DNA of 64,000 nucleotides from Terriglobia bacterium. GTDB taxonomy: Bacteria > Acidobacteriota > Terriglobia > Terriglobales > Acidobacteriaceae. The stretch spans positions 67,891 to 131,890 of the forward strand of contig JAIQFD010000007.1 of assembly GCA_020073495.1 (NCBI GenBank), read 5' to 3'. Position 1 is the stretch's first letter, and each line of letters starts with the position of its first letter. Of this stretch, positions 4,917-59,626 are shown piece by piece. The notes under the pieces were generated by a model. It had not been told where the DNA came from. It was given only the letters and a program-made list of their open reading frames with translations, and did not search any database. A program made the translations under genes and the position numbers.

Positions 4917-6515
4917 ATGTTCGCGGCACTGTACATCCCGGACTTTCCCGTTGAGGCCATCGTGCGCGCGCAGCCAGAGCTGCGCGGATCTGCGGTCACG
5001 GTGGTCGAGGGCACGCCGCCCATGGAGATGGTGTGCGCACTGAACGATGCGGCTCGCGCGTTGGGCATCGAGATCGGGATGACGAAACTGCAGGCCCAGG
5101 CCCGGGACGAAAAGCTGGAACTGCGCAAGCGTTCGCCGGCGCAGGAAGCAGCCGCGCATGCCGCGCTGCTCGATTGCGCGCAGGCTTTCTCGCCGCGCGT
5201 GGAGGACACGGCGGCCGATACGGTCATCCTCGACCTTGCCGGACTCGCACAGCTCTTCGGATCCCCGGCGAAGATCGCGCATGACCTGGCGCGGCGCGCT
5301 TCGGAGATGGGCCTCGAGACGCACGTCGGTGTGGCCTCGAATCCCGATGCGGCCACGCACGCTGCGCAAGGATTTGCGGGCGTGACCGTCATCCCGCCAG
5401 GAAAAGAAGCGGAGCGCCTGGGTCCCCTGCCGATCGATGTCCTTGCGCCTGCGCCGGAACTGTTCGACACGCTCGACCGCTGGGGCGTACGCAACCTGCG
5501 CGCGCTGGGCGCGCTGCCCGAAGTCGCGGTCACTGAGCGCCTGGGACAGGAAGGGCTTCGGCTGCAACGGCTGGCACGCGGCGCGACCACGCGCGACCTG
5601 GCGCCGTGCGAGCCGCCGTTGCGTTTCGAAGAGATGCTGGAACTGGAGTATCCGGTGGACCTGCTGGAGCCGCTGGCGTTCGCTCTGGGGCGTCTGCTGG
5701 AACAGTTGTGCGCGCGGCTGGGAGCACGGGCCCTGGCCACGAATGAACTCCGGCTAGCGATGGAACTCGCCCCAGGTCCGCCGATGACCCGATTCGAGCG
5801 CACGCTGCGGCTGCCGGTGCCGATGCTCGACAGCAAGGTCTTCCTCAAGCTGCTGCAACTCGATCTGAAGTCGCATCCGCCGGGCGCGCCGGTGGCGAAG
5901 GTGACGCTGGCGGCGGAGCCGGTGCGTCCGCGCTTTGCGCAGGGCGGACTTTTTCTCCCGTTGGCCCCGGAGCCGGAACGGCTGGAACTCACCCTGGCGC
6001 GGATCTCTGGCGTCGTCGGCGAAGGGAATGTCGGGGCGGCGGAGCTGCTGGACACACACCGGCCGGACGCTTTCCGCATGCTCAAATTCATGGTTGCGCC
6101 CTGCAAAGAAGCACCTGACACCCAGCGGCTGAAGCCGCTGGGTGTCAAAAGCGGGGAGACGATGCTCGCACTCCGCGTATTCCGTCCCCCGCTGGCGATC
6201 AGCGTGGATGTTTGCTCGGGGAAGCCGGCGCGCGTGAGGTCGGAGCGGGTGCACGGTGAAGTGGTGTCGGCTTCGGGACCTTGGCGGATCTCGGGCGAGT
6301 GGTGGAAAAACAACGGCGACCACAGAGGCCAAGAGAAAACCCTTGCACCACGGATCCACACGGATGAACACGGATCGGGAAGGAAGAACGGGTGGGCAAG
6401 GGAGGAGTGGGATATCGCCGTTGTGGCCTCGCGCACGGGCAGCGCTGCGGTCGGCCTGTACCGGATCTACTGCGATGAGAACGGGGTCTGGTTCGCGCAC
6501 GGGGAGTACGACTGA
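4917..6515 (+). CDS. imuB: ImuB, inactive Y-family polymerase homologue
   Basis: A 532-residue protein starting MFAALYIPDFPVEAIVRAQ, the usual ImuB/DinP-like start. The UmuC/DinB fold spans about residues 1-340, with a C-terminal region that in known ImuB binds the beta clamp, ImuA and DnaE2. Acidic catalytic residues of active Y-family enzymes are not evident, as expected for this scaffold protein. Two repeat-derived insertions are translated in frame: a perfect hairpin at residues about 400-410 and an 'ACACGGAT' repeat with surrounding spacer-like DNA at about 462-495. The stop overlaps the dnaE2 start by one base (TGATG). Confidence 0.87.
   Translation: MFAALYIPDFPVEAIVRAQPELRGSAVTVVEGTPPMEMVCALNDAARALGIEIGMTKLQAQARDEKLELRKRSPAQEAAAHAALLDCAQAFSPRVEDTAADTVILDLAGLAQLFGSPAKIAHDLARRASEMGLETHVGVASNPDAATHAAQGFAGVTVIPPGKEAERLGPLPIDVLAPAPELFDTLDRWGVRNLRALGALPEVAVTERLGQEGLRLQRLARGATTRDLAPCEPPLRFEEMLELEYPVDLLEPLAFALGRLLEQLCARLGARALATNELRLAMELAPGPPMTRFERTLRLPVPMLDSKVFLKLLQLDLKSHPPGAPVAKVTLAAEPVRPRFAQGGLFLPLAPEPERLELTLARISGVVGEGNVGAAELLDTHRPDAFRMLKFMVAPCKEAPDTQRLKPLGVKSGETMLALRVFRPPLAISVDVCSGKPARVRSERVHGEVVSASGPWRISGEWWKNNGDHRGQEKTLAPRIHTDEHGSGRKNGWAREEWDIAVVASRTGSAAVGLYRIYCDENGVWFAHGEYD
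6116..6147. repeat. Perfect 14-bp hairpin within imuB
   Basis: TGACACCCAGCGGC and GCCGCTGGGTGTCA pair perfectly across a TGAA loop. Terminator-like or REP-like hairpins of this kind normally lie between genes; here it is read through as DTQRLKPLGV. Confidence 0.85.
6347..6376 (+). repeat. 10-bp ACACGGAT-type repeat within imuB
   Basis: Three 10-bp units share CACGGAT (ACCACGGATC, CACACGGATG, AACACGGATC). An ACACGGAT spacer repeat is common between genes in several phyla; here it is translated in frame near the imuB C-terminus. Confidence 0.8.
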
Positions 6516-9500
6516 TGTACGTGGAACTTCACGCCCGATCCGCCTTCAGCTTCCTCGAGGGCTCTTCCCTGCCCGAGGAACTGGCGGCGCGATGCGCCGA
6601 ACTGGGCATGCCGGCGATGGCGGTGCTCGACCGCAACGGTGTGTACGGCGCGCCGAGGTTTCATCTCGCGGCGAAGAGAGCCGGCGTGCAGGCGCATATC
6701 GGATCGGAGATCGGCACGCGTTTGCATGGCTCCAGCATCCCTTTCCTCGTCGTGAGTCGCGAGGGATACCAGAACCTCTGCCGGTTGATCACGCGCATGA
6801 AGATGCGCGTGCCGAAACACGCCAAGCCGGGAGAGTGCGCGGCCTCGCTGGAGGAAGTCGAACCATACGCGAAGGGACTCATTTGCCTGACCGGGGGCGA
6901 CGATGGACCGCTGGGCATGTCGCTGCAGGAAGGCGGGCGCGAGGAAGCGCGGCGCGCTGTCGAGCGCCTGGTGGCGATCTTTGGACGAGAGAACGTGTAT
7001 GTCGAGCTGCAGCGTCACTTCCGGCGTGAGGAAGAATCGCGCAACGAGGCGGCGGTGGAGATCGCGCGCTCGCTCTCGCTGCCCATCCTCGCAGCCAACG
7101 GTGTCGCCTACGCCGTCCCGCAAGAACGAGAGCTGCTCGATGTCTTTACCTGCATCAAGAACCATCGCACGCTGGACACGGCGGGGCGGCTGCTGGAGCG
7201 CAACTCTGAGCGGCACCTGAAGACAGCGCGGCAGATGGCCGAACTGTTTGCCGACCTGCCCGACGCGATCGCCAATACCTGTGCGCTGTCGTCGCGGCTC
7301 AGCTTCACGCTGGCCGACCTTGGCTACGAGTTCCCGAAGTATCCGGTGCCCGAAGGCGAAACCATGATGTCGTTCCTGCGCAAGCGGACGGCGGAGGGCG
7401 CACAGGAGCGCTACGGCCGCGCCGCGCCCGGGCTACGCGCGCGCGCCAGGCGGCAGATCGAACGTGAACTGGCGTTGATCGAGAAGCTCAACCTCGCGGG
7501 ATATTTCCTCATCGTATGGGAGATCGTGCGCTTCTGCCGCGAGCAGCACATCCTGGTGCAGGGGCGGGGCTCGGCGGCGAACTCCGCGGTCTGCTACTCG
7601 CTGGGCATCACCGCCGTGGACCCGGTCGGCATGGATCTGCTGTTCGAGCGATTCCTGTCGGAAGAGCGCGGCGAGTGGCCCGACATCGACCTCGACCTGC
7701 CCTCGGGCGGGCAGCGCGAGCGCGTCATCCAGTACGTGTACCAGCGCTACGGCAAATTGGGTGCGGCGATGACGGCGAACGTCATCACCTACCGCGGGCG
7801 CTCGGCGGCACGCGAGATCGGCAAGTCGCTGGGCTTCGATCGCGAGACCCTCGACCGCCTCTCCCAGCTCGTGGGTGGCTGGGAGTACCGCGATCCCTCG
7901 GACACTCTCGCCCGCCAGTTCACTGACGCCGGCTTCGACCTCTCGCACCCCCGCATCGGAAAGTTCTTCGAGTTGTGCCAGGCGGTGCAGGACCTGCCGC
8001 GCCACCTGGGGCAGCATTCCGGCGGCATGGTGATCTGCCAGGGGCAGCTCGATTCGGTGGTGCCGCTCGAGCCCGCGTCCATGCCCGGCCGCGTGGTGGT
8101 GCAGTGGGACAAGGAAGACTGCGCCGACATGGGGATCATCAAGGTGGACCTGCTGGGGCTGGGAATGATGGCGGTGCTCGAAGACACCATCCAGATCGCG
8201 CGCGAGGCGCAGGGCGAAGAGCTCGACCTGGCGCATCTTCCGCCGGACGATCCCGAGGTATACGCCGCGCTCCAGAAGGCGGACACGGTGGGCATGTTCC
8301 AGATCGAGAGCCGGGCGCAGATGTCGTGCCTGCCGCGGCTGCGGCCGCAGCGCTTCTACGACATCGTGGTGCAGGTGGCGATCATCCGGCCGGGACCGAT
8401 CGTGGGCCAGATGGTGAATCCGTATTTGAACCGAAGGCAGGGACGCGAGCCGGTTGTGTATCCGCACCCGTCGCTGGAGCCGGTGCTGGCGCGCACGCTG
8501 GGCGTGCCGCTTTTCCAGGAACAATTGCTGCGCATGGCCATGATCGCCGCCGGATTCTCGGGCGGCGAAGCGGAGGAGTTGCGCCGTGCCTTCGGCTTCA
8601 AGCGCTCGGAGGCGCGCATGCGCGACATCGAGGTCAAGTTGCGCCTGGGCATGACGCGCAACGGCATCGCCCCGGCCGCGCAGGAGGAGATCATCAAGTC
8701 CATCACCTCGTTCGCGCTTTACGGCTTCCCCGAATCGCACGCCGCCAGCTTCGCGCTGCTGGCTTACGCCAGCGCCTGGCTGAAGACGCACTACCTGGCT
8801 GCGTTCACCGCCGCCCTGCTCAACAATCAGACAATGGGCTTTTATCACGCCTCCACGGTGGTGAAGGACGCGCAGCGGCACGGGCTGAAGTTCAAGGCGA
8901 TCGATGTCTTGAGGTCGGGGTGGATGTGCAGGCTGGAAGAGGTCGTCGGTCGTCAGTCTTCGGTCGTCGGCAAAAAATTCGCTGTGCGCCTTGGCCTGCG
9001 ATATGTGAAGGGATTAAGAGAGGAAGCAGCGCGGGCGATCGTGGAAAGAAGAAAGATGCGGCCATTCACCTCTATCGACGAACTGGCCCGCCGCGTGCCG
9101 GAGCTGCGTAAGGCGGAGTTGCAGATGCTGGCGGAGGTGGGAGCACTGAACTCAGTTTCTAGTTCCTCGTTTCTCGTTTCTAGAACAAACCCGGCGAGTG
9201 AAATCGCTGCTGTCGAGAAACTAGAAACTAGAAACCAGAAACTTCATCGAAGGGACGCTCTCTGGCAGGTCGAGCGCGCGACGCGCCCGGCCGGTCCGCT
9301 GCTGGATGAAGTCCATGAGCAAGATGCGCCCGCTCCCTTAAAGAAGATGACTGCCGAGGAGAGGCTGGTGGCGGATTTCCGCGGCACGGGGCTGACTGTC
9401 GGACCGCATCCCATGGCCTACCGGCGCGCGGAGATGAACGCGCTTGGAGTGCGCCCGGCCGTCGAATTGCCGCGTATCCCCAACGGCCGGCGGGTGCGCA

Positions 9501-9763
9501 CGGCGGGATGCGTCATCGCGCGCCAGCGTCCCGGAACGGCGCACGGATTCGTATTCCTCAGCCTGGAAGATGAGACCGGCATCTCCAACGTGATCATCAC
9601 TCCCGACCTGTTCGAGCAAAACCGCGTGCTGCTGGTCGGCGAGAAGTTCCTGCTGGCAGAGGGCGTGCTGCAAAACCTGGATAACGTGATCTCGGTAAAG
9701 GCCGACCGGGTGCTGCCGCTCAGCGTGACGGCAGCGGAAACCAGCTCGCACGATTTCCACTGA
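6515..9763 (+). CDS. dnaE2: DnaE2, error-prone DNA polymerase III alpha subunit
   Basis: A 1082-residue C-family polymerase of DnaE2 length. The PHP domain starts at residue 1 (YVELHARSAFSFLEGSS), followed by palm and fingers (VQGRGSAANSAVCY, PDIDLDLPSGGQRERV), the helix-hairpin-helix region and a C-terminal OB fold (HGFVFLSLEDETGISN). With ImuA and ImuB it performs translesion synthesis in the damage response. Two insertions made of 7-bp repeats are translated in frame, at residues about 809-819 and 881-910, between the polymerase core and the OB domain where variation is probably tolerated. Confidence 0.93.
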   Translation: MYVELHARSAFSFLEGSSLPEELAARCAELGMPAMAVLDRNGVYGAPRFHLAAKRAGVQAHIGSEIGTRLHGSSIPFLVVSREGYQNLCRLITRMKMRVPKHAKPGECAASLEEVEPYAKGLICLTGGDDGPLGMSLQEGGREEARRAVERLVAIFGRENVYVELQRHFRREEESRNEAAVEIARSLSLPILAANGVAYAVPQERELLDVFTCIKNHRTLDTAGRLLERNSERHLKTARQMAELFADLPDAIANTCALSSRLSFTLADLGYEFPKYPVPEGETMMSFLRKRTAEGAQERYGRAAPGLRARARRQIERELALIEKLNLAGYFLIVWEIVRFCREQHILVQGRGSAANSAVCYSLGITAVDPVGMDLLFERFLSEERGEWPDIDLDLPSGGQRERVIQYVYQRYGKLGAAMTANVITYRGRSAAREIGKSLGFDRETLDRLSQLVGGWEYRDPSDTLARQFTDAGFDLSHPRIGKFFELCQAVQDLPRHLGQHSGGMVICQGQLDSVVPLEPASMPGRVVVQWDKEDCADMGIIKVDLLGLGMMAVLEDTIQIAREAQGEELDLAHLPPDDPEVYAALQKADTVGMFQIESRAQMSCLPRLRPQRFYDIVVQVAIIRPGPIVGQMVNPYLNRRQGREPVVYPHPSLEPVLARTLGVPLFQEQLLRMAMIAAGFSGGEAEELRRAFGFKRSEARMRDIEVKLRLGMTRNGIAPAAQEEIIKSITSFALYGFPESHAASFALLAYASAWLKTHYLAAFTAALLNNQTMGFYHASTVVKDAQRHGLKFKAIDVLRSGWMCRLEEVVGRQSSVVGKKFAVRLGLRYVKGLREEAARAIVERRKMRPFTSIDELARRVPELRKAELQMLAEVGALNSVSSSSFLVSRTNPASEIAAVEKLETRNQKLHRRDALWQVERATRPAGPLLDEVHEQDAPAPLKKMTAEERLVADFRGTGLTVGPHPMAYRRAEMNALGVRPAVELPRIPNGRRVRTAGCVIARQRPGTAHGFVFLSLEDETGISNVIITPDLFEQNRVLLVGEKFLLAEGVLQNLDNVISVKADRVLPLSVTAAETSSHDFH
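8941..8970 (+). repeat. Heptamer array inside dnaE2
   Basis: Four 7-bp units (GGTCGTC twice, AGTCTTC, GGTCGTC) in tandem, in frame with the polymerase (translated VVGRQSSVVG). Confidence 0.85.
9155..9243. repeat. Inverted heptamer arrays (hairpin) inside dnaE2
   Basis: The left arm 9155-9183 holds four 7-bp units of the form NAGAAAC read on the minus strand, and the right arm 9215-9243 holds four on the plus strand. The arms pair across a 31-base loop and the 89-bp structure keeps the polymerase frame open. The same unit type recurs between scpA and scpB at 58001-58031. Confidence 0.88.
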
Positions 9764-16847: not shown

Positions 16848-17388
16848 CGTTCGCCTCTCGTTTCCAGAAGCATGCGGGGGCACTTTCGGAAGAGCATTTT
16901 GCGTGCCACGCATGGACGCAGCCGGCGCAGCCAAAAGACACATCCAGGCCTGCAAGTCACTGAGCCGATTGCACGACAAAAACGGCGCCAAGCTGCAAAG
17001 AACGCAGGTGTGCGCCGATATGGGAAGACGAGGCGAGGAGTTGCCGCTTCGGGAATCTGCCTATCTTTGTCATCCCGAGCGAAGCGAGCCTTCGCAAGCG
17101 CAGTCGAGGGACCTGATTTTTCTTGGGTGGAAGCCCCGGCCTTTAGGCCGGGGTTAACCGCGCCCTCCCCCCTGTCATCCCGAGGGCCTTCAGGCCCGAG
17201 GGACCTCGGACCCTGCCGCACCTTCTCGCGCTGTGTACCGGATTCTCCCCGGCCGTCGCTTCCCGTGTGGTGTTTCTGAACGTTCTCGGCGATCTCGGCG
17301 ATCCCGGCGTTCTCGGCGATCTCGGCGATCTCGGCGATCCCGTGACGCCCGTCACTGCGCTCCACACCCAAGGACGCAACAATCAGCC
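16848..17388. other. Repeat-rich intergenic region
   Basis: I find no credible gene. The region contains two copies of a dispersed spacer repeat of the type TCATCCCGAGCGAAGC...GGGACCT (17069-17114 and 17174-17206), a CCCCGGCCTTTAGGCCGGGG hairpin near 17133-17152 and a 9-bp tandem array (17282-17344). It should also hold the promoter of the signalling operon on the minus strand. Confidence 0.6.
17282..17344. repeat. 9-bp tandem repeat, seven units
   Basis: Seven 9-bp units (GTTCTCGGC, GATCTCGGC, GATCCCGGC and variants) lie directly upstream of the PD-(D/E)XK gene, with a hint of a 27-bp higher order. It would encode RRS repeats on plus or AEI repeats on minus but is probably non-coding. Confidence 0.88.
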
Positions 17389-27356: not shown

Positions 27357-27368
27357 CGGCAGGAGGTC

Positions 27369-27391
27369 GGGAGTCAGTAGTCAGGAGTCGG
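27369..27391 (+). repeat. Heptamer array between htpX and moxR
   Basis: Three 7-bp units (GGGAGTC, AGTAGTC, AGGAGTC) follow AGGAGGTC, 13 bp after the htpX stop. Confidence 0.75.
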
Positions 27392-34713: not shown

Positions 34714-35796
34714 ATGAAGACCGGAATCATTGGCCTGCCGCAAGTCGGAAAGACATCTCTGTTCAGGATGTTGACCAAGGTGCAGGTCGACGCCGCGCAC
34801 CACAATCCGCGGGAAGCGCATATCGGCGTCGCCAAGGTTCCCGACGATCGCCTCGACAAGCTGGCCGCGCTCTACAACCCAAAGAAGTTGATCCACGCCT
34901 CGGTCGAGTACGTCGACGTCGCGGCCATGAGCCAGGAAGCGCTGAAGGACACCGCCTACGCCACCGCGCTGCGCAACGTCGACGCCCTTGCGCACGTGGT
35001 CCGCGCCTTTGACGATCCCTCCATCCCACACGTGGGCCCCATCGATCCGCTGCGCGACGTCAAGAACATCGAGTTCGACCTCATGGTCAGCGACCTGGGG
35101 CAACTCGAGAAGCGCCTGGAGCGCGTCGAAAAGGACCGGAAAAAGATCAAGGACCCGGAGATCGAGAAGGAGCACGAGATCCTTCTCAAGTGCAAGGCGC
35201 AGCTCGAGGCGGAGAAGCCGCTGCGCGAGATGGAGCTGAACCCGGAGGACAAGAAACGTCTGCGCGGATTCATGTTCCTGAGCCAGAAACCCATCCTGTA
35301 CGTGCTCAACGTCAGCGAAACCACCGACCTGGGCAGCGCACTGGAGCTTGCGGTCGAAAAGCACAAGCTGACGGAGGTCGCGTCGCGCCCCAATGCCGGC
35401 GCCACCGCCATCTGCGGGAAGGTCGAGGCCGAACTGGCGGAGATGGAGGACTCCGAAGCCGCCGAATTCCTGGGTTCCTACGACCTCAAGGAGAGTGGCC
35501 TCACGCGCCTCATCCGCAAGACGTATGAGTTGCTCGGCCTGATCTCGTTCTTCACCGTCGGCGAGGACGAGTGCCGTGCCTGGACGGTTGATCGCGGTGT
35601 GCGCGCCGTGAATGCCGCCGGCGCCATCCACTCCGACCTGGAGAAACACTTCATCCGCGCCGAGGTCATCCACTGGGACGCGCTGCTCGAGGCCGGGTCG
35701 GAGGCCAACGCCCGCTCCCGGGGCACGCTGCGCCTGGAAGGCAAGGACTACGTCGTCAAGGACGGCGATGTAATGCATGTACGACATAGTGGATAA
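34714..35796 (+). CDS. ychF: YchF, OBG-family redox-regulated ATPase
   Basis: A 360-residue protein of normal length. P-loop GLPQVGKTS, NVSE in place of the GTPase NKxD motif (the reason YchF prefers ATP), a coiled insert (about 110-175) and a C-terminal TGS domain (EVIHWDALLEAGSEANARSR to the end). YchF binds the ribosome and proteasome-like complexes and tunes the stress response. The last codons touch the heptamer array that starts right after the stop. Confidence 0.95.
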   Translation: MKTGIIGLPQVGKTSLFRMLTKVQVDAAHHNPREAHIGVAKVPDDRLDKLAALYNPKKLIHASVEYVDVAAMSQEALKDTAYATALRNVDALAHVVRAFDDPSIPHVGPIDPLRDVKNIEFDLMVSDLGQLEKRLERVEKDRKKIKDPEIEKEHEILLKCKAQLEAEKPLREMELNPEDKKRLRGFMFLSQKPILYVLNVSETTDLGSALELAVEKHKLTEVASRPNAGATAICGKVEAELAEMEDSEAAEFLGSYDLKESGLTRLIRKTYELLGLISFFTVGEDECRAWTVDRGVRAVNAAGAIHSDLEKHFIRAEVIHWDALLEAGSEANARSRGTLRLEGKDYVVKDGDVMHVRHSG

Positions 35797-35797
35797 G

Positions 35798-35842
35798 CGC
35801 ATAGCTCATAGCGCATTGTTCATAGCGCGTAGGACATAGGGC
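35798..35842 (-). repeat. Heptamer array, left arm around the S23 gene
   Basis: Six 7-bp units (CGCATAG, CTCATAG, CGCATTG, TTCATAG, CGCGTAG, GACATAG) begin one base after the ychF stop. On the minus strand they read CTATGNN, matching the array at 36278, so the two form an inverted pair with the S23 gene between them. Confidence 0.9.
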
Positions 35843-35885
35843 AAGGCGAAGATCTTCATGATGCGTGTGGGGAGAGGGAGCGAGC

Positions 35886-36245
35886 ATGTCCGGGTCATAC
35901 ACCGAGTTGATCGCGTGGCAAAAAGGGATGGATATGGTGGAGGCGGTCTACCGCGCCACTTGTTCCTTCCCCACTCATGAACTGTACTCATTGACTCAGC
36001 AGCTACACCGGGCGGCGATTTCCGTCCCCAGCAACATCGCGGAAGGGCACGCAAGGTTCTCGCCGAAAGATTTTCGGCATTTCCTGCGGCAATCTCGTGG
36101 ATCTGTCGCGGAACTGGAAACTCAACTTATGCTGGCGCAGCGCTTGGGCTATATCACCGACGAGGGGCTTCGTCCGCTCATGGCACAAGTGAGTGAGGTG
36201 GGCCGAGTATTGACGGGACTCATCAATTCCATCGATGTGGAGTAG
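35886..36245 (+). CDS. Four-helix-bundle S23 / 23S rRNA intervening-sequence protein
   Basis: ATG 35886 with GAGGGAG upstream gives 119 residues. The family signature is clear: LIAWQKGMDMVEAVYRAT, then LTQQLHRAAISVPSNIAEG, then FLRQSRGSVAELETQLMLA. S23 proteins are encoded in intervening sequences inside some 23S rRNA genes and are also related to Avd of diversity-generating retroelements; their molecular role is unclear but basic faces suggest nucleic-acid binding. This copy is not in rRNA but is flanked by inverted 7-bp arrays. Confidence 0.93.
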   Translation: MSGSYTELIAWQKGMDMVEAVYRATCSFPTHELYSLTQQLHRAAISVPSNIAEGHARFSPKDFRHFLRQSRGSVAELETQLMLAQRLGYITDEGLRPLMAQVSEVGRVLTGLINSIDVE

Positions 36246-36277
36246 CTGTCACGCGCTCCACCCATGGGCAACGCTGT

Positions 36278-36312
36278 GCGCTATGTACTATGTGCTATGT
36301 ACTATGTACTCT
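36278..36312 (+). repeat. Heptamer array, right arm around the S23 gene
   Basis: Five 7-bp units (GCGCTAT, GTACTAT, GTGCTAT, GTACTAT, GTACTCT) end 10 bp before the ZIP transporter start, replacing its expected ribosome site region. Confidence 0.9.
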
Positions 36313-36322
36313 GCTCTTCTAA

Positions 36323-37063
36323 ATGCCAACGAATCCCATCCTTTTGAGCGTGCTGCTGGGCCTTACCGCGGCGGCGGCCGACGTCTTCGGCGGCGCCATC
36401 ATCGTGCAGAAGGTCTGGGAGCGCCGCTACCTGAAGTACTTCGTCGCCCTGGGCGCCGGTTTCATGCTGGCCACCGCTATGACCGAAATGGTGCCGGAAA
36501 GCCTGCGCCTCGCCGGGTCGCGGGCGCCTCTGTTCATCCTCATCGGGTATCTGATCGTCCATTTCTTCGAGCATACCGTCACGCCCCACTTCCATTTCGG
36601 AGAAGAGACGCACCCCGATGAGTTCGTTCACGCGCACAAGAGCTACTCCGTGCTGGTCGGGCTGACCATCCACACGTTTTTCGACGGGATCGCCATCGCC
36701 TCGGGCTTCCTGGTCTCGAGCTGGCTGGGATGGGTGATCTTCCTGGCTGTGTTCTTGCACAAGATCCCGGAGGGCTTCACGGTGGCCTCGGTGATGCTGG
36801 CCAGCGGCCGCAGCCGGGGCGTCGCATGGGGTTCCTCGGCGCTACTGGGAGCCGCGACCCTTGCCGGCGTGCTGACCATGTCGTGGCTGGCGGAATTCCT
36901 GAGCGCGGGGCTGGCGCTCTCCGCGGGGGTGACCATCTACGTTGCGGCCTCGGACCTTATGCCCGAAGTGAACAAGGAGCCCGGAGTCAAAATGGCGCTG
37001 GTGGTTTTTCTCGGCGTCGGCCTTCTCTTTGCGCTCGATCGGCTGATCCACGCCGCCCACTAA
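36323..37063 (+). CDS. ZIP-family metal transporter
   Basis: A 246-residue protein with eight hydrophobic helices. The metal-binding motifs HTFFDGIAIASG (helix 4) and HKIPEGFTVASV (helix 5) are intact, with a His-rich loop (HTVTPHFHFGEETHPDEFVH). ZIP proteins import zinc, iron or manganese. No Shine-Dalgarno is visible between the heptamer array and the ATG, so translation may rely on the upstream transcript. Confidence 0.93.
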   Translation: MPTNPILLSVLLGLTAAAADVFGGAIIVQKVWERRYLKYFVALGAGFMLATAMTEMVPESLRLAGSRAPLFILIGYLIVHFFEHTVTPHFHFGEETHPDEFVHAHKSYSVLVGLTIHTFFDGIAIASGFLVSSWLGWVIFLAVFLHKIPEGFTVASVMLASGRSRGVAWGSSALLGAATLAGVLTMSWLAEFLSAGLALSAGVTIYVAASDLMPEVNKEPGVKMALVVFLGVGLLFALDRLIHAAH

Positions 37064-45527: not shown

Positions 45528-46130
45528 ATGCGCGGCGTCCTGGAGAACATCGGCTGGCTGCTGGGATGCGTCTACTCGACCATCCCTGCCTACTGGTTCC
45601 TGGTACATCCGTTCGCCGATCTCTGGCGCAAGCGCAAAGTCTCGCTGAAGCACGTAGGTTGGGTGTGGCCGCTGCTCTGGGTCGCGGTCGGCGCGATAAC
45701 AGCGCAGTGGCGTCACATGACCCTCTACCGCCAGCCGCTGACCTGGATCCCCGGCGTGGCCCTGATCGCGACCGCGATGTATGTCTATTCCCGTGCCCGC
45801 CACGACTTCTCCGAAGACCAGGTGCTGGGCCGCTCGGAACTCGAACCGGAGAAGCATGAGCAGCGCCTGGTCACCACCGGCATCCGCAGCCGCATCCGCC
45901 ACCCCTATTACCTGGCGCACCTCTGCCACCTGCTGGGATGGACCGTGGGGACCGGCTCAGCGGCCCTGTACGGCATGAGCGCCTTCGCGGTTGTGACCGG
46001 CGCAGTGATGATCCAAATGGAGGAGCGCGAACTGGAGCAGCGCTTCGGTGACGAGTACCACCGCTACCAGGCCAGTAGCTCCGCCATCATTCCCGTCCCC
46101 CGCAGCCGCCGGCCCGCGACTAGCGACTAG
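45528..46130 (+). CDS. Isoprenylcysteine methyltransferase-like membrane protein
   Basis: ATG 45528 gives 200 residues; an upstream frame is longer but has no family match. Four to five helices and the C-terminal signature RHPYYLAHLCHLLGW with EERELEQRFGDEYHRY match the ICMT/PEMT methyltransferase family of membrane methylases that use S-adenosylmethionine. The last residues (ATSD) are encoded by a heptamer array, whose TAG supplies the stop. Confidence 0.85.
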   Translation: MRGVLENIGWLLGCVYSTIPAYWFLVHPFADLWRKRKVSLKHVGWVWPLLWVAVGAITAQWRHMTLYRQPLTWIPGVALIATAMYVYSRARHDFSEDQVLGRSELEPEKHEQRLVTTGIRSRIRHPYYLAHLCHLLGWTVGTGSAALYGMSAFAVVTGAVMIQMEERELEQRFGDEYHRYQASSSAIIPVPRSRRPATSD

Positions 46131-46143
46131 CGACTCGCGACCC
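46116..46143 (+). repeat. Heptamer array at the end of the methyltransferase gene
   Basis: Four 7-bp units (GCGACTA twice, GCGACTC, GCGACCC) cross the stop codon at 46128-46130. Confidence 0.9.
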
Positions 46144-48846: not shown

Positions 48847-51294
<2,448 letters not shown>

Positions 51295-51295
51295 G

Positions 51296-51341
51296 CCATC
51301 AGCGTTCAGCCATCAGCCGTCAGGGAAACCTGGCGGCTGAT
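51296..51341 (+). terminator. Heptamer array forming the clpC terminator
   Basis: Four 7-bp units (CCATCAG, CGTTCAG, CCATCAG, CCGTCAG) start 2 bp after the stop. The last two pair with CCTGGCGGCTGAT across a GAAA loop as a 13-bp stem (one G-T), followed by TTTGTTTG. Confidence 0.8.
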
Positions 51342-51372: not shown

Positions 51373-51419
51373 GATTCGGTATCGGATTCTGAGTACTGAG
51401 TACCGAATACTGAGCACCC
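51373..51419 (+). repeat. Second heptamer array before glutaredoxin
   Basis: A run of degenerate 7-bp units (GATTCGG, TATCGGA, TTCTGAG, TACTGAG, TACCGAA, TACTGAG). The TACTGAG unit is the same type as at 62657-62769. Confidence 0.83.
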
Positions 51420-57160: not shown

Positions 57161-57999
57161 TGCCCGAAGCCACGCCCAATCCGAATCCCGCGCCGTCGGC
57201 GACACCGGCCGGGAAGAAGGATGGAACCGACTTCCCCTTCTCCGTTACCGTGGGCGAGGTCTACGACGGGCCTCTCGACCTCCTGCTCGACCTCATCCGC
57301 AAGCAGGACATCGACATCTACGACATCCCCATCGCACGCATCACGGCGCAGTACCTGGGCTACGTGGAGAAACTCAAAGAGCTCGACGTCAACGTCGCCG
57401 CCGAGTTCATTTTCATGGCCTCGGTGCTCATCCAGATCAAGTCGCGGATGCTCCTGCCGCGCGACCCCGACGCGCCCGCCGACCAGCAGGACGACCCGCG
57501 CATGGACCTGGTCAGCCGCTTGCTCGAGCACGAGAAATTCAAGAACGCGGCCCAGATGTTGATGCAGAAGCAGCAGCTCGAGGAAGCCGTGTGGTCGAAC
57601 CCCGCGTTGAAGGAGTTCAAGGACGCCGAGGGCGCCGAAGCCGAACTCGCCGCCGACGTTGTGGACCTGGTACGCACCTTCCAGGACATCCTGGAGCGCG
57701 CCAAGGAGCGCCCCATCCTCCAGCTGGACGAGGAGGCCATCACCGTCGGCCAGATGATGGATTACATCCGTCGCCGGCTGCTGATGGAAGACCGCCCTGT
57801 GCGCCTGAAGTCGCTGCTGCAGTACACGCGATCGCGCAACGCCCTGGTGTGCGCCTTCCTAGCCCTGCTCGAGATGGTGCGCTTGCAGGCAATCTTGCTC
57901 CGCCAGAACCGCGTCTTCGGCGACATTCTGGTGAAGAAACACACGATGTTCGACGCTATCATGAGCGATGAGTCGGCCGTACGGGACGATTGGCGTTAA
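57160..57999 (+). CDS. scpA: Segregation and condensation protein A
   Basis: A 279-residue kleisin with the N-terminal motif YDGPLDLLLDLIRKQDIDIY and a C-terminal winged-helix region. It joins SMC and ScpB in chromosome condensation. The last 35 bp before scpB are a heptamer array. Confidence 0.94.
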   Translation: MPEATPNPNPAPSATPAGKKDGTDFPFSVTVGEVYDGPLDLLLDLIRKQDIDIYDIPIARITAQYLGYVEKLKELDVNVAAEFIFMASVLIQIKSRMLLPRDPDAPADQQDDPRMDLVSRLLEHEKFKNAAQMLMQKQQLEEAVWSNPALKEFKDAEGAEAELAADVVDLVRTFQDILERAKERPILQLDEEAITVGQMMDYIRRRLLMEDRPVRLKSLLQYTRSRNALVCAFLALLEMVRLQAILLRQNRVFGDILVKKHTMFDAIMSDESAVRDDWR

Positions 58000-58000
58000 C

Positions 58001-58031
58001 GAGAAACTAGAAACGAGAAACCAGAAACTAG
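58001..58031 (+). repeat. Heptamer array between scpA and scpB
   Basis: Units GAGAAAC, TAGAAAC, GAGAAAC, CAGAAAC, then TAG. Same unit as the hairpin inside dnaE2. Its end supplies AGGA just before the scpB ATG. Confidence 0.9.
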
Positions 58032-58741: not shown

Positions 58742-59545
58742 ATGCCCGAACTCCCCGAAGTCGAAACCATCGCGCGCGGTCTGGCCAAGCGCGTCACCGG
58801 TGATACGGTCGAGTCTGCCTGGATCGGCGAAAAGCCCGAGCCCCTGAAATCGCCCGCCGACGAGATCGTCCGCACCCTCGAGGGTGCAAGCATCGCGCGC
58901 ATCCACCGCCAGGGGAAGCACATCGTCTTCGAACTTCGTCACAAATCTGATCGCGCGCAGTTCATCGTTCACCTGGGCATGACGGGACGCCTGCTGATCG
59001 CCAGCCCCGATCTTCCTGTCGAGAAGCACACTCACGCCATCCTGCGCCTGCGCTCCGGCCGCGAGTTGCGCTTTGTGGATCCCCGTCGCTTCGGCCGGCT
59101 TTCCGTGCACAAGGAAAAACGATTCGAAGGCATGGAGCCGCTTGACCTCGGCTTTGAGCTGTTCCGCGGCCTCTTCCGCAAGCGCAAAACGCCCATCAAG
59201 AGCGCGCTGCTCAACCAGAAGCTGCTGCGCGGCATCGGCAACATCTACGCCGACGAGTCGCTGGCCCGCGCCGGCATCCGCCCTCGCCGGCGCGCCGGCT
59301 CGCTCACACGCGACCAGCTTCACCGCCTGTACGGATCCATCCAGCAAGTGCTGAATGAGGCCATTGCCGCCGGCGGCTCCTCGGTCTCCGACTACGTGGA
59401 CGCCGAGGGGGATGAAGGCTTCTTTCAGCTCCAGCATCGTGTCTACGGCCGCGAAGGGGAGCCCTGCCTGGTCTGCCGTACGCCGATCAAGCGCGTGGTG
59501 GTCGCGGGGCGCAGCACGCATTACTGCCCGAAGTGTCAGAGATAG
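58742..59545 (+). CDS. mutM: Formamidopyrimidine-DNA glycosylase
   Basis: A 267-residue Fpg: catalytic N-terminus MPELPEVETIARGL (Pro2, Glu3), helix-two-turn-helix GIGNIYADESL, and C-terminal zinc finger CLVC...CPKC. It excises 8-oxoguanine. Its TAG stop lies inside the left arm of an inverted heptamer array. Confidence 0.95.
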   Translation: MPELPEVETIARGLAKRVTGDTVESAWIGEKPEPLKSPADEIVRTLEGASIARIHRQGKHIVFELRHKSDRAQFIVHLGMTGRLLIASPDLPVEKHTHAILRLRSGRELRFVDPRRFGRLSVHKEKRFEGMEPLDLGFELFRGLFRKRKTPIKSALLNQKLLRGIGNIYADESLARAGIRPRRRAGSLTRDQLHRLYGSIQQVLNEAIAAGGSSVSDYVDAEGDEGFFQLQHRVYGREGEPCLVCRTPIKRVVVAGRSTHYCPKCQR

Positions 59546-59626
59546 CGGTTAGCAATTTGCGATTAGCGTTTAGCCAACTACGATCCGCCTGCCTGGCTAA
59601 ACGCTAATGGCTAATAGCTAATCGCT
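59544..59626. repeat. Inverted heptamer arrays (33-bp arms) after mutM
   Basis: Arms 59544-59576 and 59594-59626 match at 29 of 33 positions as inverted copies with a 17-base loop. Units are 7 bp (GCGATTA, GCGTTTA; on the right ACGCTAA, TGGCTAA). It may end the trpS-mutM transcript. Confidence 0.93.

Follow-up and report, generated by a model that had tools for sequence, protein, structure and literature searches.

The feature lying between ychF and a ZIP transporter gene in the window, i.e. the whole stretch of 64,000 nucleotides that was analysed, is probably one copy of a mobile element that measures about 0.45-0.52 kb. The element consists of a heptamer array, a single gene for an S23 protein and the same array in inverted orientation. 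An S23 gene together with its arms is a mobile element, whose mode of movement was not shown and for which no transposition was observed. That the S23 protein binds the hairpin formed by the arms and drives the spread of the element is inferred.

Behind the ychF stop codon (35794-35796) the left arm reads GCGCATA, GCTCATA, GCGCATT, GTTCATA, GCGCGTA and GGACATA. The initial annotation had described six units of a CATAG type here; the number held, but the first base of the array is 35797 and not 35798 as noted. The right array, which leads through CGCTATG, TACTATG, TGCTATG and TACTATG to TACTCTG, was found where it had been described, about 10 bp ahead of the ATG of the ZIP gene (36323). The S23 ORF, as stated before, is the only gene detected between the arrays (PF05635, E 8e-37); besides its ATG an alternative GTG start is possible at 35865. 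Both arrays were called by TRF, the left one being imperfect with 68-76% matches. The arms of this copy have diverged: their unit consensuses agree at 5 of 7 positions and the pair failed the strict inverted-pair detector. In the predicted RNA of the element arm pairs with arm (z -2.47; 1 of 100 shuffles was as good). The element is not located in an rRNA gene, and the only Rfam match in the window is one tRNA.

Table 1. Features of the window and S23-bearing plasmid sites that have S23-less counterparts
Feature	Position	Strand	Remarks
ychF, host gene at left flank	34714..35796	+	ORF and profile match
Left arm, 6-7 imperfect 7-bp repeats (TAGCNCA type, reading CATAG)	35797..35843	+	directly 3' of the ychF stop
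S23 / four-helix-bundle gene, 119 aa; PF05635, TIGR02436	35886..36245	+	profile match, predicted Avd-like fold
Right arm, CTATGTA-type 7-bp units in inverse orientation to left arm	36272..36313	+	ends ~10 bp before ZIP start
ZIP-family metal transporter gene, host gene at right flank	36323..37063	+	ORF and profile match
ORF-less inverted 7-bp hairpin TAGTTTC / GAAACTA	9154..9242		in frame in error-prone DNA polymerase gene 6515-9763
ORF-less inverted 7-bp hairpin, GATTAGC / GCTAATC type	59543..59626		strict pair detector
Plasmid site: TraM-gene junction			counterparts have a different spacer or another hairpin
Plasmid site: junction just upstream of TrbI/VirB10 gene			counterpart array-free
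Plasmid sites: two successive junctions in one gene cluster			counterparts array-free
Plasmid site: 3' end of a coding gene			counterpart array-free
Plasmid site: integrase-gene junction			counterpart array-free
Plasmid site: between nrdB and nrdA, S23 on opposite strand			counterpart array-free

The genome of the window (3.70 Mb) contains eight PF05635 genes, and the five top-scoring of these have 7-bp arrays on both flanks, built from five different heptamers. Further S23 loci were taken from 61 related genomes including this one (45 with S23), from a one-genome-per-species set spanning 84,980 species, where the 80 best of 516 confirmed stretches were kept, and from the Dyella family, i.e. 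the Rhodanobacteraceae of the order Lysobacterales (NCBI). Of 117 genomes of this family 42 had S23, and 29 loci were used. High-scoring S23 proteins are referred to as subfamily A and low-scoring ones (under 75 bits) as subfamily B. Period-7 arrays on both flanks were found at 161 of 232 usable S23 loci from several phyla, namely 72 of 100 for subfamily A in the related genomes, 59 of 78 in other phyla, 22 of 29 in the Dyella family and 8 of 25 for subfamily B. In the controls, which were drawn from the window's genome only, such arrays stood on both sides of 73 out of 20000 random intervals and of 2 out of 225 ORFs of at least 300 aa. S23 genes are thus strongly enriched inside inverted 7-bp arrays, as had been inferred initially. 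The finding that was to refute the link, S23 genes usually lacking arrays or arrays unlinked to S23, did not materialize.

The heptamer differs from locus to locus and is common to both arms of one element. At 121 of the 161 loci the arms are reverse complements in at least 6 of 7 positions and at 6 they are direct copies, while arms paired across different loci reach that match in 4.6% of the cases. Periods other than 7 and its multiples were found at no more than 6 of 100 and 4 of 78 loci in two subfamily A sets. The arms mostly comprise 4-5 units, which at 116 loci holds for 97 of the left and 101 of the right arms; the array detector is blind to fewer than four units. In 464 kb of this genome, made up of the window and 20 sampled 20-kb stretches, seven strict inverted pairs were detected at period 7, one at period 9 and none at periods 5, 6, 8, 10 and 11.

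For 71 of the 232 loci no arrays were detectable on both sides. The loci are mostly best-scoring matches and not all are independent, as for near-identical Thiobacillus copies. We left out L037, whose coordinates were unresolved, 2 of 80 multi-phylum and 1 of 26 subfamily B loci with too short a flank, lower-scoring PF05635 matches in the related genomes and Dyella-family matches without a locus. The downstream flank was 300 bp in the 232-locus count and 250 bp in earlier counts; the period-7 counts agree between both.

The predicted fold of the S23 protein (pLDDT 94.7) matches XCC0516, a protein solved with five chains (2gsc). More distantly, the fold is like that of Avd from a diversity-generating retroelement (DGR) and its RNP, with TM-scores of 0.76-0.80 to 4dwl and to chains of 8ub7/8ube. 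In sequence the similarity to Avd (NF033474) is weak and below the family cut-off. Among 172 subfamily A proteins, residues Q39, R42, S46, N50, E53 and E76 show 98-100% conservation. The S23 proteins are under purifying selection, with dN/dS of 0.05-0.15 in 12 pairs; the remaining nine comprised one practically identical pair and eight saturated ones. Neither Pfam nor NCBIfam detected a transposase or known catalytic domain in S23.

Protein subfamily and arm motif change together. With 7- and 8-bp calls pooled, YAG is present in 212 of 285 arm calls of subfamily A versus 3 of 33 of subfamily B, and RATY in 16 of 285 versus 24 of 33; the arm units of subfamily B are 7 or 8 bp long. YAG occurs in 101 of 144 arms of the related genomes and in 97 of 118 arms of the multi-phylum set, compared to a shuffled mean of 35 in either case. 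It was rejected as a universal heptamer core: in the Dyella family only 7 of 44 arms contain it, fewer than in the shuffled sets (mean 13). All 44 arms there have the looser YRG (shuffled 32). That protein and motif change together by subfamily suggests, by inference only, that the protein recognises the arms. The subfamily B copies of this genome (L006-L008) have longer units, by eye of about 9 and 15 bp, and were scored as misses at period 7; the arrays of L006 and L008 have the ~9-bp unit CGGCGATNN. The window itself has a 9-bp array, TCTCGGCGA, at 17284-17339.

Arrays without a gene are found in the window as well. The hairpin within the polymerase gene (Table 1) corresponds to about 25 extra residues relative to two homologues. 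About 200 bp upstream of it, in another variable stretch, there is a single 7-bp array (GGTCGTC, 8941-8970). For five further 7-bp arrays of the window (46105-46141, 51294-51323, 51389-51413, 57998-58031 and 27366-27389; GACTAGC, AGCCATC, CTGAGTA, AACGAGA and GTCAGGA types) the strict detector found no inverted partners. The seven strict period-7 pairs in the 464 kb are all ORF-less, and five of them are situated outside long open frames. Two of the seven carry the CAGTACT unit of L002, an S23 element with an in-frame stop, which is the only S23 element of this genome whose unit matches the sampled hairpins.

The strongest evidence on the gene-less arrays was obtained with doubled heptamers, searched in 26 Dyella-family genomes, 18 with S23 and 8 without an S23 match. 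Doubled GCGGTGA gave 83 and 107 matches in the two genomes with such S23 arms and none in the 24 others. Doubled CGGGACT gave 75, 108, 68 and 146 matches in the four genomes with such arms; elsewhere there were 71 in one genome with CGGGACC arms (one base off), 1 in another and 0 in 20. For doubled GGGAATC we obtained 8-18 matches in five genomes with GGGAATC or mixed arms and 19-21 in two with GGGATTC arms. This unit is less clean: matches also turned up in two genomes that lack an S23 match (32 and 9) and in one whose S23 arms are GCGGTGA (16). Three more genomes had 1-3 matches, and 13 had none, among them one genome with related arms. Since doubled matches overlap, the separate arrays are fewer: the 100 GCGGTGA matches listed for genome G162 comprise 40 separate arrays; in 11 cases a plus and a minus array lie no more than 100 bp apart, and one array pair encloses the S23 gene. 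One or two S23 genes per Dyella-family genome thus contrast with many arrays of the matching heptamer. The gene-less hairpins look like non-autonomous copies of the S23 element. Their initial assignment to the S23 family is supported, in that two of three units cleanly match resident S23 arms in the Dyella family; against it, GGGAATC is less clean and in the window's genome only the L002 unit matches, in two of seven hairpins.

We read 30 ychF-ZIP junctions of this and related genomes. S23 is present in seven of them (G000, i.e. this genome, G002, G005, G010, G025, G026 and G031), and the junction of G019 has a truncated copy. At least G009, G017, G023, G024 and G036 have short, array-free junctions. 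The comparison with empty sites that the initial annotation proposed was only partly possible: S23-less orthologous junctions exist, but none was resolved base by base, the relatives being too diverged. A genome of the same class (G052) carries a subfamily B element with ATTCGGA arms at this junction. In the S23 tree, copy L004 clusters weakly with two copies from other sites. Two relatives (L140, L164) have other repeats behind ychF, of CACAGAGACACAGAG and CCACGGATTTTCACGGATT type, which may be further gene-less hairpin families.

Filled and S23-less sites were resolved on plasmids. Of 72,556 plasmid records 28, most of them from cyanobacteria, carry S23 genes; of ten loci examined among the 28, nine have complementary arms by eye and L301 does not. 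Seven plasmid S23 sites have S23-less counterparts, six of which are array-free (Table 1). One element family, with S23 proteins 75-84% identical to that of L299, is found at three unrelated plasmid sites. The homology of these three elements ends at the outer array edges, such that array, S23 gene and array are the whole unit. The element family can thus be regarded as mobile, one of the two natures that the initial annotation had offered. Mobility is better supported than the other, RNA processing, on which there are no RNA data. At the insertion point of the six array-free sites TAA or TAG was read by eye from the alignments; because most of these are stop codons, this may reflect mere tolerance. 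Putative target-site duplications are GTAAT at one site and TTAG at another, are ambiguous elsewhere, and a constant length was not shown. Plasmid record L310 has a decayed copy consisting of the left arm and part of S23. Phages as carriers were rejected, since among 50,697 phage records no match was found. On the Anabaena sp. 90 plasmid pANA02 an S23 element (L297) separates cas6 from cas4 in a type I-D CRISPR-Cas operon. The accessible part of a CRISPR paper names a 23S rRNA IVP domain (PMC10910872), and insertions like L297 could be the source of this mention.

A second set of sites is the pdhB-E2 junction of the genus Thiobacillus, where of 30 loci 16 bear S23, 13 are S23-less and 1 was unresolved. 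Two different heptamers occur among the S23-bearing junctions, which indicates that units turn over in both arms. In an ungapped test 6 of the 13 S23-less junctions had an inverted repeat beating all 100 shuffles; for a seventh, 4 of 100 shuffles were as good and for the others 10 to 93. The impression by eye that all 13 contain hairpins was therefore rejected. Several S23-less versions (L196, L199, L200, L205, L207 and L212) have longer-unit hairpins that are CGCGAAGGA-like by eye.

None of the five 7-bp S23 elements of the window's genome has a site in common with the S23 loci of one congener genome as judged by blastn, whereas the longer-unit element L007 does share its site with that genome. 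The S23 tree partly groups by site, in that 6 of the 7 copies next to ychF fall into a single clade of 11 rows (support 89, quick tree), and L001 of this genome has site and unit, by eye, in common with L020 of another genus. Some S23 copies are thus old residents.

The intervening sequences (IVS) of S23 type in 23S rRNA are similar to the window element in that an S23 ORF lies between complementary ends that form a stem, and in being of about equal size. The Coxiella IVS has 428 nt and, in the part of the source that was accessible, a few tandem GACAGAT heptamers directly upstream of the S23 ORF (PMC4990558). Read cyclically as CAGATGA this is a YAG unit, which as far as that partial source goes fits the S23-array family. 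In contrast to the IVS, the element described here is found outside rRNA in protein-coding surroundings, has arrays on both sides and occupies several sites per genome in a presence/absence manner. An rRNA location of the S23 loci was rejected, as the 23S words tried in a word search were absent from 117 of 117 loci. The rRNA IVS hence appears to be a particular location of a more widespread family. The 23S IVS already shows one face of the S23-array system.

In the RAYT/REPIN system one trans-acting gene is accompanied by many gene-less inverted hairpin pairs of matching sequence per genome. Likewise, dispersed gene-less hairpins match the resident S23's own flanks, cleanly for two of three units in the Dyella family. 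Unlike RAYTs, S23 is a four-helix bundle without a Y1 (HUH) transposase and the sole gene of its element, and its arms are heptamer arrays instead of the REP palindromes of REPINs. With the DGR the element shares an Avd-like protein (fold match 4dwl, 8ub7), but no RT match was found in this genome. Unlike a classical IS or MITE, the element has no transposase of its own recognisable by Pfam or NCBIfam.

Intergenic 7-bp arrays like those of the S23 elements have been described as heptameric repeats in Xanthomonas and Nostoc (PMC4692102) and in Beggiatoaceae (PMC4679880). In their accessible parts both papers treat the arrays as sequence repeats, and the terms S23 and four helix are absent from their main text. 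For Xanthomonas, 70 and 75 inverted pairs of GGGAATC arrays are given for two genomes in the accessible part (PMC4692102); this unit is also present in some S23 arms of the Dyella family, which belongs to the same order. Heptanucleotide repeats are furthermore reported, in the portion of the source available, for the P6b hairpin of Nostoc tRNA-Leu introns (PMC3488679). Like the S23 arms these are degenerate heptamers that form a hairpin and fall into two motif classes, but they are located in an intron. Costa et al. are said to have distinguished motif classes of the Nostoc heptamers in 2002, including TDNGATT; this class resembles the arms of S23 subfamily B. We found no literature linking S23 genes to intergenic heptamer arrays in open-access sources, most subscription papers being outside this scope.

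The Avd-like fold, the conserved residues and the low dN/dS favour S23 as the protein that binds the heptamer hairpin and drives the spread. On this inferred mechanism, S23, an Avd-like bundle whose solved relatives are five-chained, would bind a hairpin of its own heptamers. The bound hairpin may be RNA or single-stranded or cruciform DNA, and each S23 subunit would perhaps read one heptamer. S23 would in this way drive the copying or insertion of its own element and of ORF-less hairpins with the same heptamer; an enzyme for cutting and joining was not identified. Insertion would be tolerated mainly where a TAA or TAG stop meets the next gene, and the S23-containing intervening sequences of rRNA would be explained as copies inserted into a 23S gene.

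The unit could instead be moved in trans by a host Y1 (RAYT/IS200-type) transposase, with S23 as an accessory or as a passenger profiting from the hairpin arms. S23 and Y1_Tnp counts do correlate over the 61 genomes (Spearman 0.65, p 1e-8), and the dispersed inverted array pairs, which form unit families, are reminiscent of REPINs. The correlation may, however, reflect only a general tolerance of mobile DNA; 6 of 45 S23-bearing genomes, with 12 S23 genes, have no Y1 match, and the genome-wide array unit matches the S23 arms for GCGGTGA and CGGGACT. The Y1 transposase as carrier of the arrays was rejected, because none of 20 Y1 genes examined (of many) is flanked by an inverted 7-bp array pair, and we consider the trans-acting Y1 transposase unlikely. 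In another reading S23 acts like Avd in a non-autonomous retroelement and delivers the hairpin RNA to a reverse transcriptase that is provided in trans; its resemblance in sequence and fold to Avd, also as a subunit of the DGR ribonucleoprotein, would suit this. A reverse transcriptase is rejected as a necessary partner by this genome, which has eight S23 genes and no RVT_1 match. S23 and RT counts are uncorrelated (rho 0.15, p 0.26), and 29 of 45 S23-bearing genomes lack an RT match, which renders a retroelement decidedly improbable.

There remain two readings without mobility. The heptamer hairpins might be regulatory RNA at gene junctions, with S23 as a regulator binding to its own leader and to hairpins like it. 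The predicted pairing of the element RNA, the position of most sampled ORF-less hairpins outside long open frames, the inverted repeats that beat all shuffles in six of the S23-less pdhB-E2 junctions and a fold suited to RNA binding agree with this. Filled sites with array-free counterparts, one element family at unrelated sites, a hairpin in frame within a polymerase gene and the antisense insertion between nrdB and nrdA do not, such that we give this reading very little credence. Arrays are common in this genome, and they could be independent slippage products between some of which S23 genes happen to lie. Such a coincidence is scarcely conceivable given 161 of 232 S23 loci against 73 of 20000 random intervals, and 121 loci with matched inverted arms against 6 with direct ones.

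With the mobile S23 element as the preferred reading, a more far-reaching proposal can be made, which we hold as tentative and somewhat doubtful. S23 may represent a new class of mobilising protein, a pentameric four-helix bundle whose five subunits read about five heptamers, in keeping with arms of mostly 4-5 units, and whose active or binding site is formed by Q39, R42, S46, N50, E53 and E76. Alone or with housekeeping enzymes it would spread its own gene together with dozens of matching gene-less hairpins. Unit and protein would co-evolve, each lineage having its own code, and the rRNA IVS would be a by-product.

If the mobile element reading is true, three poorly understood phenomena would be joined into one mobile system: the S23 'ribosomal proteins', whose function is not known, the intervening sequences of rRNA, whose origin is unclear, and the intergenic heptamer arrays described from several bacteria. 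Heptamer hairpins would at the same time gain a directly testable candidate driver. If S23 reads heptamers one per subunit, this would be a new kind of modular nucleic-acid recognition.
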